DNA of 64,000 bases, from contig NZ_SZQF01000011.1 in the NCBI RefSeq assembly GCF_005869935.1, positions 1 to 64,000 on the forward strand, written 5' to 3'. Positions within the stretch are counted from its first letter, which is position 1. Each line of letters opens with the position of its first letter. Below, one piece after another: positions 15,196 to 39,037 of the stretch. A model generated the notes under the pieces. It was not told the origin of the DNA. It saw only the letters and a program-made list of their open reading frames with translations, and made no database searches. A program made the position numbers and the translations under genes. The DNA is from Winogradskyella algicola (GTDB lineage: Bacteria > Bacteroidota > Bacteroidia > Flavobacteriales > Flavobacteriaceae).

Positions 15196-15218
15196 GTGGC
15201 TTCGAGAGCCTCAGCCAC
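15196..15218. repeat. Palindromic element, CTTCGA/CTCAG family, copy 1
   Basis: GTGGCT (15196-15201) and AGCCAC (15213-15218) form the outer stem. TC is bulged, and GAG/CTC with loop AGC forms the inner stem. It lies 6 bp past the rsmH stop. The same layout appears at 38042-38066 and, inverted, at 38101-38124; looser relatives lie at 19435-19455 and 37702-37725. Confidence 0.75.
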
Positions 15219-19434: not shown

Positions 19435-19455
19435 ATGCTTCGACAAGCTCAGCAT
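19435..19455. repeat. Palindromic element, CTTCGA/CTCAG family, copy 2
   Basis: ATGCT (19435-19439) and AGCAT (19451-19455) pair around TCGACAAGCTC. It shares the CTTCGA...CTCAG core of the family with a different stem. It lies between the protease and the permease genes. Confidence 0.65.
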
Positions 19456-36358: not shown

Positions 36359-36366
36359 TATCTTTG
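36359..36366 (+). promoter_or_regulatory. Probable -7 box for HMG-CoA reductase
   Basis: TATCTTTG matches TAnnTTTG, 22 bp before the ATG at 36388, in the gap divergent from the peptidase gene. Confidence 0.5.
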
Positions 36367-36387
36367 CAATTCAAAATCAATTTAACT

Positions 36388-37692
36388 ATGCCAACCGCTA
36401 TTTCTGGCTTCTCTAAACTATCTAAATCTAAAAAGATCGAATGGCTTTTAGACACTTATTTCTCAAACAAGGAAAGTGCTCGAAACCTAGTGCAACAGTA
36501 TTGGAATTCCGATGCAAAACTTCAAAAGCTTCATGATGAGTTTATAGAAAACACCATTACTAATTATTATTTACCTCTTGGTGTAGCACCTAACTTTTCG
36601 ATTAACAACAAGCTTTACACTATACCAATGGCAATAGAAGAGAGTTCTGTGGTTGCAGCAGCTAGTAAGGCGGCAAAATTTTGGCTAGATAGAGGTGGCT
36701 TTAAGGCTGAAGTGATTTCGACAGAAAAAATTGGTCAAGTTCATTTTACATATACTGGTAATTTCGAAGCGTTACAATCTTTCTTCGAAATTGTAAAACC
36801 AAAACTTATTGAAGACACCAGAGCCATCACTAAAAACATGGAACGTCGTGGTGGTGGTATTTTAGATATTGAACTTAAAAATAAAACCCAAGACTTAGAG
36901 CACTACTACCAATTGCATGCTACGTTTGAAACACTAGATGCAATGGGTGCCAACTTTATAAATTCTTGTTTAGAACAATTTGCTAAAACCTTTAAGGCCG
37001 AAGCGCAAGCACAATTAGAAAACGACGTAAATATCGTAATGAGTATTCTCTCTAACTATGTACCTAATTGTCTGGTTAGAGCTGAAGTGTCTTGCCCTAT
37101 CACTGATTTAAAAAGTAAAGACATAACAAACCCATCACTGTTTGGAGAGAAGTTTAAACAAGCGGTTAACATCGCTGAAATTGAACCTTACAGAGCTGTA
37201 ACACACAACAAAGGTATAATGAACGGTATCGACGCTGTGGTTTTAGCAACAGGTAACGACTTTAGAGCAGTTGAAGCTGGTGTGCATGCATACGCTTCAA
37301 AAGATGGAAAATATAAAAGCTTAACGCACTGTTCTATTGAAGACGATACTTTTAAATTTTGGATTGAAATTCCACTTGCTTTAGGTACAGTAGGTGGCTT
37401 AACAAGTTTACATCCATTAGTAAAGTTTGCTTTAGAAATGCTTGAAAAGCCATCAGCAAAAGATTTAATGCAAATTGTTGCTGTAGCAGGTTTAGCTCAG
37501 AATTTTGCTGCTGTAAAATCCTTAACTACTACTGGTATTCAAGAAGGTCATATGAAGATGCATTTAATGAATATATTAAATCAGTTTGAAGCTACCTCAG
37601 AAGAAAAAGAAAAAATAGTAGAGCATTTTAAAACTAATGTGGTAACACATAGTGCAGTTGTTGAAGCCATTGAAAATATAAGGGAAATTTAA
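36388..37692 (+). CDS. Hydroxymethylglutaryl-CoA reductase (class II type)
   Basis: Reductase interconverting HMG-CoA and mevalonate. At 434 residues, with EESSVVAAASKAAKF near 84-98 and DAMGANFINSC near 185-195, it belongs to the class usually annotated as degradative. In flavobacteria this class probably works biosynthetically in the mevalonate route to isoprenoids; that is inferred from its presence beside a GHMP kinase. The ATG at 36388 is preferred over a TTG eight codons upstream, which overlaps the -7 box and precedes the conserved PTAISGFSKL start. Confidence 0.92.
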   Translation: MPTAISGFSKLSKSKKIEWLLDTYFSNKESARNLVQQYWNSDAKLQKLHDEFIENTITNYYLPLGVAPNFSINNKLYTIPMAIEESSVVAAASKAAKFWLDRGGFKAEVISTEKIGQVHFTYTGNFEALQSFFEIVKPKLIEDTRAITKNMERRGGGILDIELKNKTQDLEHYYQLHATFETLDAMGANFINSCLEQFAKTFKAEAQAQLENDVNIVMSILSNYVPNCLVRAEVSCPITDLKSKDITNPSLFGEKFKQAVNIAEIEPYRAVTHNKGIMNGIDAVVLATGNDFRAVEAGVHAYASKDGKYKSLTHCSIEDDTFKFWIEIPLALGTVGGLTSLHPLVKFALEMLEKPSAKDLMQIVAVAGLAQNFAAVKSLTTTGIQEGHMKMHLMNILNQFEATSEEKEKIVEHFKTNVVTHSAVVEAIENIREI

Positions 37693-37701
37693 TTTAAACT
37701 G

Positions 37702-37725
37702 GTGACTGAGCGTAGTCGAAGTCAC
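37702..37725. repeat. Palindromic element, CTTCGA/CTCAG family, copy 3
   Basis: GTGACT (37702-37707) and AGTCAC (37720-37725) pair around GAGCGTAGTCGA. The reverse strand shows the family core CTTCGA...CTCAG. It lies 17 bp before the start of the GIY-YIG coding region. Confidence 0.75.
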
Positions 37726-37741
37726 ATTATTAATCATATAA

Positions 37742-39037
37742 ATGCCAAAAGGATACGTTTATATATTAGAATGCGCTGATGGTTCTTACTATACTGGTAG
37801 TACTATTGACGTTGAAAAACGTATTGCAGAACACAATGAAGGTAAAGGTGCTAATCATACAAAAAAGCGTCTACCTGTAGCGCTAAAATATATTGAAGAG
37901 TTTCAAAGAATAGATGATGCTTTTTACAGAGAGAAACAAATTCAAGGTTGGAGTAGAGCGAAAAAAGAAGCTTTAATAAACAACAACTCTGATAAATTAC
38001 CAGAACTTTCTTTGGCTTATAGAGATAAGAAAAATCAAGATGGTGGCTTCGAGAACCTCAGCCATCAAAAATACGAGGACAACAATAAGTTGAACAAACC
38101 GGTGCCTGAGGCACTCGAAGGCACATTATATTATAAAAGCAACGGAAAATTATTAATCACTGGTGAATACGTTGTGCTTGATGGTGCAAAATCATTAGCC
38201 ATACCAACAAAATATGGTCAAAGTCTTAAAATTGAAGAAGACAACAACAATACCTTAATCTGGAAAAGCTATGATGAAAAGGGAAATGTTTGGTTTGAAA
38301 ATAGTTTCACTTTAGAAAATGGTAAGATTCTTAAAACCATTGGGAATGATAATGATATTTCTTCTCGATTAGTACAGATTCTTGAATCCGTTCAGCAACT
38401 AAATCCTAACTTTTTAAAAACTCTAAAAGGGTATAAGATTTCAACGCATTTAGAGTTTAACAGAAAATGGGGTCTGGGAACCTCCTCTACATTGATAAAC
38501 AATATTGCGCAATGGGCAGATGTTAATGCTTATCAACTTTTAGAAAAAACTTTTGGCGGTAGTGGTTACGATATTGCTTGTGCTCAGCACAACACACCAA
38601 TTACATTTCAGTTAAAGCCAACTAATTCGCCTATTGTTAACGCAGTTGAGTTTAATCCATCTTTTAAGAACAACCTATACTTTGTCTATCTCAACCAAAA
38701 GCAAAATAGTAGAGATGGCATTAAAGCTTACAGAGCATTAAATAAACTAAATAGTAACATAATTAGTGAAGTCATTTGGCTTACGGAAAGTATTATCAAT
38801 TGCACTGAACTTTCTATTTTTGAAAATCTGATAACTAAACATGAAGAACTAATAGGTCAATTAATTAATCAAACACCTATTAAATCAAGATTTTTTAGTG
38901 ATTATAATGGATGCATGAAGAGTTTAGGTGCTTGGGGAGGAGACTTTATCTTAGTAACTTCAGAAAGTGATCCTAGCAACTACTTTAAATCAAAAGGACT
39001 AGATGTTATCATTCCTTTCACTGAAATGGCAAAATAA
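37742..39037 (+). CDS. GIY-YIG nuclease domain fused to a GYDIA-type GHMP kinase
   Basis: A 431-residue two-part protein. Residues 1-92 are a small GIY-YIG nuclease domain of the UPF0213/YhbQ type: YVYILE (5-10), YYTGST (16-21), Arg27, His31 and catalytic-site Glu64 (FYREKQIQGW) are all present. Residues 96-128 are a hydrophilic linker, largely encoded by two palindromic elements (38042-38066, 38101-38124). Residues 130-431 are a GHMP-superfamily kinase starting YKSNGKLLITGEYVVLDGA, with GLGTSSTLINN and GGSGYDIACAQ; such proteins sit beside HMG-CoA reductase in flavobacteria and may be mevalonate-pathway kinases. The two halves are usually separate genes, so the fusion probably arose by insertion of a nuclease cassette. 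A kinase start near 38127 lacks an ATG. Confidence 0.85.
   Translation: MPKGYVYILECADGSYYTGSTIDVEKRIAEHNEGKGANHTKKRLPVALKYIEEFQRIDDAFYREKQIQGWSRAKKEALINNNSDKLPELSLAYRDKKNQDGGFENLSHQKYEDNNKLNKPVPEALEGTLYYKSNGKLLITGEYVVLDGAKSLAIPTKYGQSLKIEEDNNNTLIWKSYDEKGNVWFENSFTLENGKILKTIGNDNDISSRLVQILESVQQLNPNFLKTLKGYKISTHLEFNRKWGLGTSSTLINNIAQWADVNAYQLLEKTFGGSGYDIACAQHNTPITFQLKPTNSPIVNAVEFNPSFKNNLYFVYLNQKQNSRDGIKAYRALNKLNSNIISEVIWLTESIINCTELSIFENLITKHEELIGQLINQTPIKSRFFSDYNGCMKSLGAWGGDFILVTSESDPSNYFKSKGLDVIIPFTEMAK
38042..38066. repeat. Palindromic element, family copy 4, translated in the linker
   Basis: GGTGGCT (38042-38048) and AGCCATC (38060-38066) pair over 7 bp with one wobble. TC is bulged, and GAG/CTC with loop AAC forms the inner stem, the layout of copy 1. 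It encodes GGFENLSH of the fusion protein. Confidence 0.75.
38101..38124. repeat. Palindromic element, family copy 5 (inverted), translated in the linker
   Basis: GTGCCT (38102-38107) and AGGCAC (38119-38124) pair; GAG/CTC with loop GCA is inside, and GA is bulged on the 3' side. It is the mirror orientation of copy 4, 35 bp away, and encodes about VPEALEGT just before the kinase domain. Confidence 0.75.

Follow-up and report, generated by a model that had tools for sequence, protein, structure and literature searches.

Short palindromes are a widespread feature of the intergenic regions of bacteria. In the window considered here, namely, a 64,000-nucleotide stretch of the Winogradskyella algicola genome (positions 1 to 64,000 of contig NZ_SZQF01000011.1), three such palindromes and a small GIY-YIG nuclease domain are found between HMG-CoA reductase (HMGR) and a kinase, raising the question of how this arrangement arose and of how the nuclease relates to the hairpins that surround it. 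A partner enzyme is known for GTAG-tagged REPs, whereas none is apparent for CGTC REPs in the accessible part of Di Nocera 2013 (PMC3733652).

Results

A bracketed nuclease domain fused to a kinase

The relevant features of the window are the following.

15200-15214, + strand: solitary family-A palindrome core (motif match)
19438-19452, + strand: solitary family-A palindrome core (motif match)
36364-37692, + strand: HMG-CoA reductase, left neighbour (ORF, with the product name coming from the sequence-only reading; junction orthologous in relatives)
37702-37725, - strand: upstream hairpin, family A, GTGACTGAGCGTAGTCGAAGTCAC, left arm of the bracket (read from the sequence; core 37706-37721)
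37742-38023, + strand: GIY-YIG nuclease domain, read here as 94 aa (PF01541, residues 3-75, E 2.2e-18)
37742-39037, + strand: single ORF of 431 aa comprising the GIY-YIG domain, a linker and a GYDIA-family GHMP kinase (ORF list and profile matches)
38044-38064, + strand: downstream hairpin, right arm of the bracket, inverted relative to the first and within the fused ORF (core 38047-38061)
38102-38124, - strand: third hairpin, directly 5' of the kinase domain and within the fused ORF (core 38106-38120)

The sequence-only reading had described a GIY-YIG domain with R27 and E64 intact, preceded by one palindrome and trailed by two, in a unit situated between HMGR and a kinase. Both points are borne out, the first by the PF01541 match and the located palindrome cores, the second by the end of the HMGR ORF at 37692 and by a GYDIA-family GHMP kinase domain downstream (profile NF040656, E 4.2e-128, residues 131-429). 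That reading, which gave the domain as 92 residues, had missed a fusion, the nuclease being the N-terminus of a 431-aa ORF that continues into the kinase. Indeed, because no stop is found between the two and positions 37742-39037 form an uninterrupted frame, nuclease and kinase comprise one ORF, inside which the second and third hairpins fall. The first hairpin is separated from the ATG at 37742 by 16 bases. No separate ATG is found where the kinase part begins, although an in-frame TTG at 38090 is possible. As the kinase has seemingly lost its own ATG, a mevalonate-pathway-type enzyme may need to be translated through the nuclease. Another case of a metabolic enzyme fused in frame to a mobile-type nuclease domain was seen at L071:1474-2970 (G000:C10, at about 280.3 kb), where a Y1-transposase-like domain (PF01797, 23.6 bits) lies within a 498-aa frame and is joined, as judged by eye, to an apparent coproporphyrinogen III oxidase.

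The pattern CTTCGAN{3,6}CTCAG was matched five times in the window, as compared to a mean of 0.06 matches and a maximum of 1 in shuffled sequences. When considered as single DNA strands, the three hairpins of the window fold modestly (z -1.40, -1.70 and -2.28). All three are without a GTC tag and lie outside the format of CGTC REPs (a stem of 8-9 bp starting with AT, a loop of 4-5 and a CCA-like tail), with the family A stem carrying GA/AG mismatches. No Rfam match was obtained for region 37600-38250 up to E 1.

The window protein is a member of the GIY-YIG family, as defined by the PF01541 domain and catalytic Y, Y, R and E residues, with Y7, Y17, G19, R27 and E64 being invariant in an alignment of 42 sequences. 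By both sequence and fold, the nearest solved structures are 1zg2 and 1ywl (UPF0213/YhbQ/YazA). When an AlphaFold2 model (mean pLDDT 80) was used in a Foldseek search, the predicted fold appeared closest to UPF0213 and then, at weaker E-values, to Slx1 (Slx1-Slx4 at E 0.0097 and weaker). Unlike the cassettes described here, the yazA and yhbQ loci read (from Bacillus and E. coli, respectively) have no hairpin bracket. Slx1 together with Slx4 is described as a structure-specific endonuclease that cuts branched DNA, with Slx1 requiring Slx4 (accessible text of PMC8287910), rendering a hairpin substrate plausible for the GIY-YIG nucleases considered here. A PADLOC search for defence systems using seven nuclease members returned no match.

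The window insertion is old

Among the 30 best of 40 matching genomes of the genus, the cassette is found at the HMGR/kinase junction in seven, with a shared nuclease-kinase open frame in five of these. At six other such junctions, just 15-19 bases lie between the HMGR stop and the first aligned kinase codon. As the lengths of the open frames (G000, 431 aa; G028, 431 aa; G001, 442 aa; G023, 440 aa; and G036, 448 aa) are identical for the kinase frame and the GIY-YIG domain, the fusion recurs in five genomes. The cassette was also detected at this junction in Pontimicrobium, three named Winogradskyella, Aestuariivivens, Bizionia, Olleya and Lutibacter, as well as in MAGs called Polaribacter and Flavobacterium. 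Given that the junction carries the cassette in several genera, the insertion in the window is old, rather than fresh. In every locus read, the cassette of the window lineage was at the HMGR/kinase junction. In this lineage, dN is well under dS (0.019 vs 0.081 for G000/G028; 0.095 vs 0.398 for G000/G023). Vertical inheritance with loss by itself explains the copy in the window.

As for what this copy represents, we consider it moderately likely to be an old representative of a widespread type of small element, in which a GIY-YIG gene lies between two inverted hairpins and which would have spread by hairpin-directed cutting and host recombination.

Inverted hairpins beside small GIY-YIG genes

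The genome containing the window harbors 91 family-A cores, as compared to 11 in the reversed control. A core lies no more than 250 bp from four of its ten GIY genes, against an expectation of 0.02 per gene, with the genes at L001 and L004 having cores at 27 and 29 bp and lying inside a minus/plus pair. In this genome, minus/plus family-A pairs 335-341 bp apart occur three times; two enclose a GIY gene, while the third encloses other sequence that, by eye, is tRNA-like. Five small GIY copies lie within or beside a second, compound palindrome (CACTTCGAGTG .. TATCGAGAA; by eye) and one has neither palindrome type. Separately, the GIY genes at L008 and L220 were seen, by eye, to lie shortly 3' of a tRNA-like 3' end, in a part of the nuclease tree without recognised palindromes.

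In 80 named loci, taken as the top of a set of 516 relatives confirmed for seven proteins that had all been chosen after being seen beside palindromes, the density of CTTCGAN{3,6}CTCAG within 100 bp of the GIY gene was 5750 (upstream) and 5125 (downstream) per Mb, as opposed to 0-51 per Mb at a distance of 3.2-10 kb. According to record titles, named loci with a core within 400 bp come from Chloroflexi, cyanobacteria, Nitrospirae, a Leptospiraceae MAG and gammaproteobacteria, in addition to Bacteroidota.

The GIY genes of 41 genomes of the genus were the stronger matches listed, together with 80 further regions fetched, rather than all such genes. The 264 GIY domains found were reduced to 232 upon removal of duplicates, of which 218 small genes could be tested for inverted repeats and 222 for hairpin families. 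An inverted repeat score of at least 14 across the gene was obtained for 118/218 small GIY genes and for 52/4337 control windows, in a test that is motif-free and so is the exception among scans that otherwise relied on hairpin patterns derived from loci later counted. Ten longer frames were kept apart, with scores of at least 14 being reached by 0/3 from the genus and by 6/7 from the named loci, these seven probably being read-through frames. Using the hairpin patterns, the identical family was found on both sides of 95/222 GIY genes and 29/4419 control windows, and a hairpin on one side only of 61/222 genes and 230/4419 windows. For the remaining 66/222 GIY genes, including genes beside tRNA-like sequence, neither side presented a recognised palindrome. 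In a strict scan, in which each side had to present a perfect 7-bp stem and an outward GTC, 15/222 GIY genes and 2/2220 windows were retrieved; no GIY gene (0/222) was retrieved with any of four other trinucleotides in place of GTC.

The flanks of other genes served as a further control in the named loci. The same family was present on both sides of 30/77 GIY genes and of 0/736 other genes, while 28/77 GIY genes had a hairpin on one side or unlike hairpins on the two sides and 23/736 other genes had one on one side. The enrichment that the sequence-only reading had proposed seeking beside small GIY-YIG genes is thus present, and extends far wider than had been suggested.

This wider extent was also seen in plasmid-collection records. 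A family-C nuclease query identified homologues in 44 records, of which 11 were read, and seven records were read for the window query. With the former, the inverted repeat across the gene exceeded every control window of the same locus in Azospirillum lipoferum (42 vs 12), Shinella (47.5 vs 12), Novosphingobium aromaticivorans (31 vs 11.5), Rhizobium CIAT894 (35 vs 23), Aeromonas (23 vs 10.5), Sphingobium (28 vs 10.5) and Planktothrix (16.5 vs 10), and barely did so in Sinorhizobium meliloti (18 vs 17). No excess over locus controls was seen in Neisseria gonorrhoeae (22.5 vs 25.5), Rhizobium tumorigenes or Photobacterium. The arms beside the N. gonorrhoeae homologue resemble Neisseria dRS3 repeats (ATTCCC-N8-GGGAAT), in a locus where the repeat across the gene is under background. 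With the window query, Methylobacterium (35 vs 11.5), Sphingomonas (16.5 vs 12) and, nominally, Enterococcus (11 vs 10) were above controls, and no excess was seen for Bacillus yazA, E. coli yhbQ, Salinivibrio or Aerococcus. Several arms read CGTCAT..ATCCA. Hairpin-bracketed GIY genes hence recur in several phyla, including in Azospirillum, Shinella, Rhizobium, Sphingobium, Novosphingobium and Aeromonas.

Hairpin families tend to follow the nuclease

A nuclease tree was built from 134 GIY domains of the genus, 46 of them without a hairpin label, using an alignment from which rows with fewer than 65 matched positions had been dropped (211 kept). The tree is a rapid one based on 98 columns, a number that the program flags as small, and 54/127 inner branches remained open. 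The 88 labelled genes, representing eight hairpin families, required eight changes of family on this tree, as compared to at least 51 in 500 shuffles. When thinned to one gene per genomic context and label, the 39 genes left still required eight changes, with shuffles requiring at least 21. The set spans 47 contexts for 134 genes, and most labelled clades are found in several contexts with one hairpin family each. As such, a given nuclease lineage mostly stays with one hairpin family of its own. In cassette-bearing genomes, hairpins of some families are also dispersed without a gene, with such solo palindromes only weakly tracking the cognate nuclease (family A2, p 0.02, uncorrected for phylogeny).

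The palindromes might instead be passive neighbours, spread by another enzyme and gathering in tolerant intergenic sites that also hold dispensable GIY genes. Assorted palindromes do occur at junctions and the genome does contain one Y1-domain gene. We nonetheless regard this as highly improbable, since none of the 736 other genes was bracketed, the hairpin family follows the nuclease tree and the Y1 domain is 4.9 kb from the nearest family-A core (family A alone having been compared). Moreover, CGTC repeats are not associated with transposase genes, according to the accessible part of Di Nocera 2013 (PMC3733652). A RAYT as driver of the palindromes was likewise rejected, given the 4.9 kb separating the sole Y1 match in the genome (E <= 0.001, 23.6 bits) from such a core.

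In families A and A2, 99.1% of stem cells were paired and both-side changes were seen in all four pairs, with the covariation score being matched by 0/500 shuffles. Folding as single-stranded DNA was no better than that of shuffled sequences for two of eight hairpins (TGTCAGGCTGAGC.., z 0.23; TGTCATTTCGAGC.., z -0.51). A GTC tag outside the stem pointed outward in 72/112 arms and inward in 4/112. By family, outward GTC was found in 15/29 (A), 20/23 (A2), 11/27 (C), 10/17 (D), 8/8 (E), 4/4 (F) and 4/4 (G) arms, with family B being outside the scoring. The window clade is among the untagged nuclease clades.

Covarying stems suit RNA as well as DNA hairpins, and REPs lie mostly downstream of coding regions (accessible part of PMC3733652), both of which would agree with the palindromes being transcription terminators, RNA-stability elements or regulatory hairpins that are kept by selection on expression, rather than moved by the gene. 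Against this stand the presence of the hairpins on both sides of the gene, inverted and with the tag, where present, outward, as well as the scattering of gene-less copies (the 91 family-A cores in one genome), such that this explanation is deemed improbable.

Occupied and empty sites

Spread of the nuclease together with its hairpins, the explanation preferred here, was next considered in terms of sites that differ between relatives. In A. lipoferum 4B, a GIY gene with inverted hairpin dimers lies between sufB and sufC. Another 11 Azospirillum records with a query coverage of 80% or more lack this cassette, including three with an identity of about 94%; four of the 11 cassette-free sites were read in sequence. 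At the site of L198 (G028), the sister genome G000 (94% identical flanks) and eight other genomes contain 17-20 bases between anchors, while the junction is filled in G018, G043, G034 and G039. The empty sites in relatives that the sequence-only reading had called for are thus found, in Azospirillum, at L198 and at the family E junction described below, meaning that orthologous sites present empty alleles, as do those of homing endonuclease genes. No target-site duplication could be defined at the compared filled and empty sites, where divergence of the flanks hides any such trace. At the L198 junction of G020 (L312), a gene-less pair of family-A-like palindromes was observed where other genomes hold a GIY cassette.

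Near-identical copies in unrelated contexts are rare (nine pairs, at 82-94%), and recent transposition copies were rejected on the basis of these nine pairs only. In tandem arrays, longer units (441 or 468 bp, as GIY gene spacing) occur together with shorter, gene-less ones (173 or 130 bp), such that gene-less compound-palindrome copies are in tandem with gene-bearing ones. Two other tandem arrays, L209:1315-3939 (G034) and L208:1311-3919 (G011), contain six to seven near-identical GIY-YIG units of 427 and 381 bp, respectively, with the L209 unit including a piece that, by eye, is tRNA-Asn-like. In Sphingobium TomTYG64 (L362) and TomTYG74 (L358), a lone palindrome with CGTC at both ends is found where relatives hold the cassette. 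It resembles the joined outer halves of two arms and is a possible footprint or target. As an excision footprint it was not retained, as deletion between short direct repeats explains the palindrome equally.

The family E pattern behaves differently from the dispersed families. In the 41 genomes of the genus, 10/10 matches are arms that flank a GIY gene. Among 397 genomes sampled from the family, including three of the genus that are all without a match, 16 matches were found at 12 sites; seven sites (11 matches) adjoin a GIY gene and five do not, one of these with a mere trace (E 0.47). Family E with its gene is rare (5/41 genomes of the genus and 7/397 of the family) yet occupies a single junction in 12/12 carrier genomes. 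As read from coordinates, that junction in the 41 genus genomes holds family E in five, a different GIY clade in eight, nothing (9-109 bp) in 20 and an unresolved content in eight. The family E nucleases diverge like their neighbours, being more alike than both flanks in 15/66 pairs, so that horizontal transfer of family E is not supported by divergence. The single junctions of the window and family E cassettes and the neighbour-like divergence of the family E nucleases fit long vertical inheritance with loss.

Such fidelity could also reflect site-specific homing, in which a free-standing homing endonuclease serves one gene junction and the hairpins are parts of the cassette (terminators or repair aids), rather than the target. 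Homing would account for the rare family E being at one junction in every carrier, for that junction holding another GIY clade or being empty elsewhere in the genus, and for the confinement of the window cassette to the HMGR/kinase junction in the loci read. At the same time, a single hairpin family accompanies most labelled clades across several contexts, hairpin and nuclease co-vary, and gene-less compound palindromes stand in tandem with gene-bearing ones, leaving homing an unlikely explanation overall.

Discussion

A nuclease and its own hairpin pair form a unit that is found at many sites, where it is present or absent, with cassette-free counterparts. We infer that the nuclease cuts hairpins and so spreads the unit. 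In the mechanism proposed, the nuclease would recognise its own hairpin as a structure plus nearby bases and would cut the DNA at the hairpin or at a preferred intergenic site, with host recombination then copying the cassette or palindrome into the break. The window copy settled long ago between HMGR and the kinase and now forms an N-terminal extension of the kinase frame. GIY-YIG enzymes hydrolyse DNA and, as hydrolytic nucleases, are not known to rejoin strands, so that host repair would have to complete the spread, as in homing, making the process more homing-like than RAYT transposition. For family E and the window copy, fidelity to one site is in keeping with homing; for families A and A2 and for the CGTC type, the scattering of the hairpins is in keeping with a REP-like spread.

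In REPtrons, GTAG-tagged REPs are found with RAYT (Y1/HUH) transposases (Nunvar 2010, PMC2817692; Di Nocera 2013, PMC3733652; both as far as accessible). As in REPtrons, one small nuclease gene is flanked on both sides by inverted hairpins, in the window and generally, and solo hairpins are dispersed. Unlike in REPtrons, the enclosed gene encodes a GIY-YIG nuclease of unrelated fold, rather than a Y1/HUH transposase, the arms carry (T/C)GTC or no tag, rather than GTAG, and movement of the unit is putative. The sequence-only reading had cast the GIY-YIG nuclease as the equivalent of a RAYT for one flavobacterial palindrome family. The association, the bracket and the co-variation by lineage are in line with that role, while the restriction to a single flavobacterial family falls, given the additional families and several phyla involved. 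The analogy with REP and RAYT would thus hold in the sense of "works like."

CGTC REPs are described, in the accessible part of Di Nocera 2013 (PMC3733652), as inverted dimers with a CGTC (often TGTC) tag, an 8-9 bp stem starting with AT, a 4-5 nt loop and a CCA-like tail, and as being without a dedicated transposase. Many relatives of the window cassette carry the corresponding GTC outside the stem and, by eye, many arms of families C, D and G, together with the Azospirillum, Rhizobium, Shinella and Aeromonas arms, fit this stem, loop and tail. By contrast, the hairpins of the window do not, family A there being untagged and its stem mismatched.

GIY-YIG homing endonucleases include those of the I-TevI type and the free-standing Seg enzymes. 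The cassettes share with these the catalytic domain, a patchy, site-specific occurrence and empty alleles, yet encode proteins barely larger than the GIY-YIG domain, and we know of no hairpin bracket around a GIY-YIG homing endonuclease gene. Among the literature matches listed, which lie outside subscription papers and preprints, no link between bacterial GIY-YIG genes and REP-like palindromes was found, and the words nuclease, transposase and RAYT are absent from the accessible text of the 2025 RepRanger survey (PMC12306157).

These observations suggest small GIY-YIG nucleases as the driving enzymes of a large class of bacterial repeats, for which no enzyme was previously known. It is about as likely as not that the dedicated enzymes missing for the CGTC/TGTC REP superfamily and for related hairpins (CTTCGA..CTCAG) are such nucleases, which would define a RAYT-unrelated mobile class that spreads itself and its hairpins through hairpin-directed cutting and host recombination across bacteria. 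The lineage-by-lineage presence of a hairpin-bracketed gene makes the spread of such palindromes directly testable. If true, another nuclease fold would join the enzymes that drive small mobile elements.
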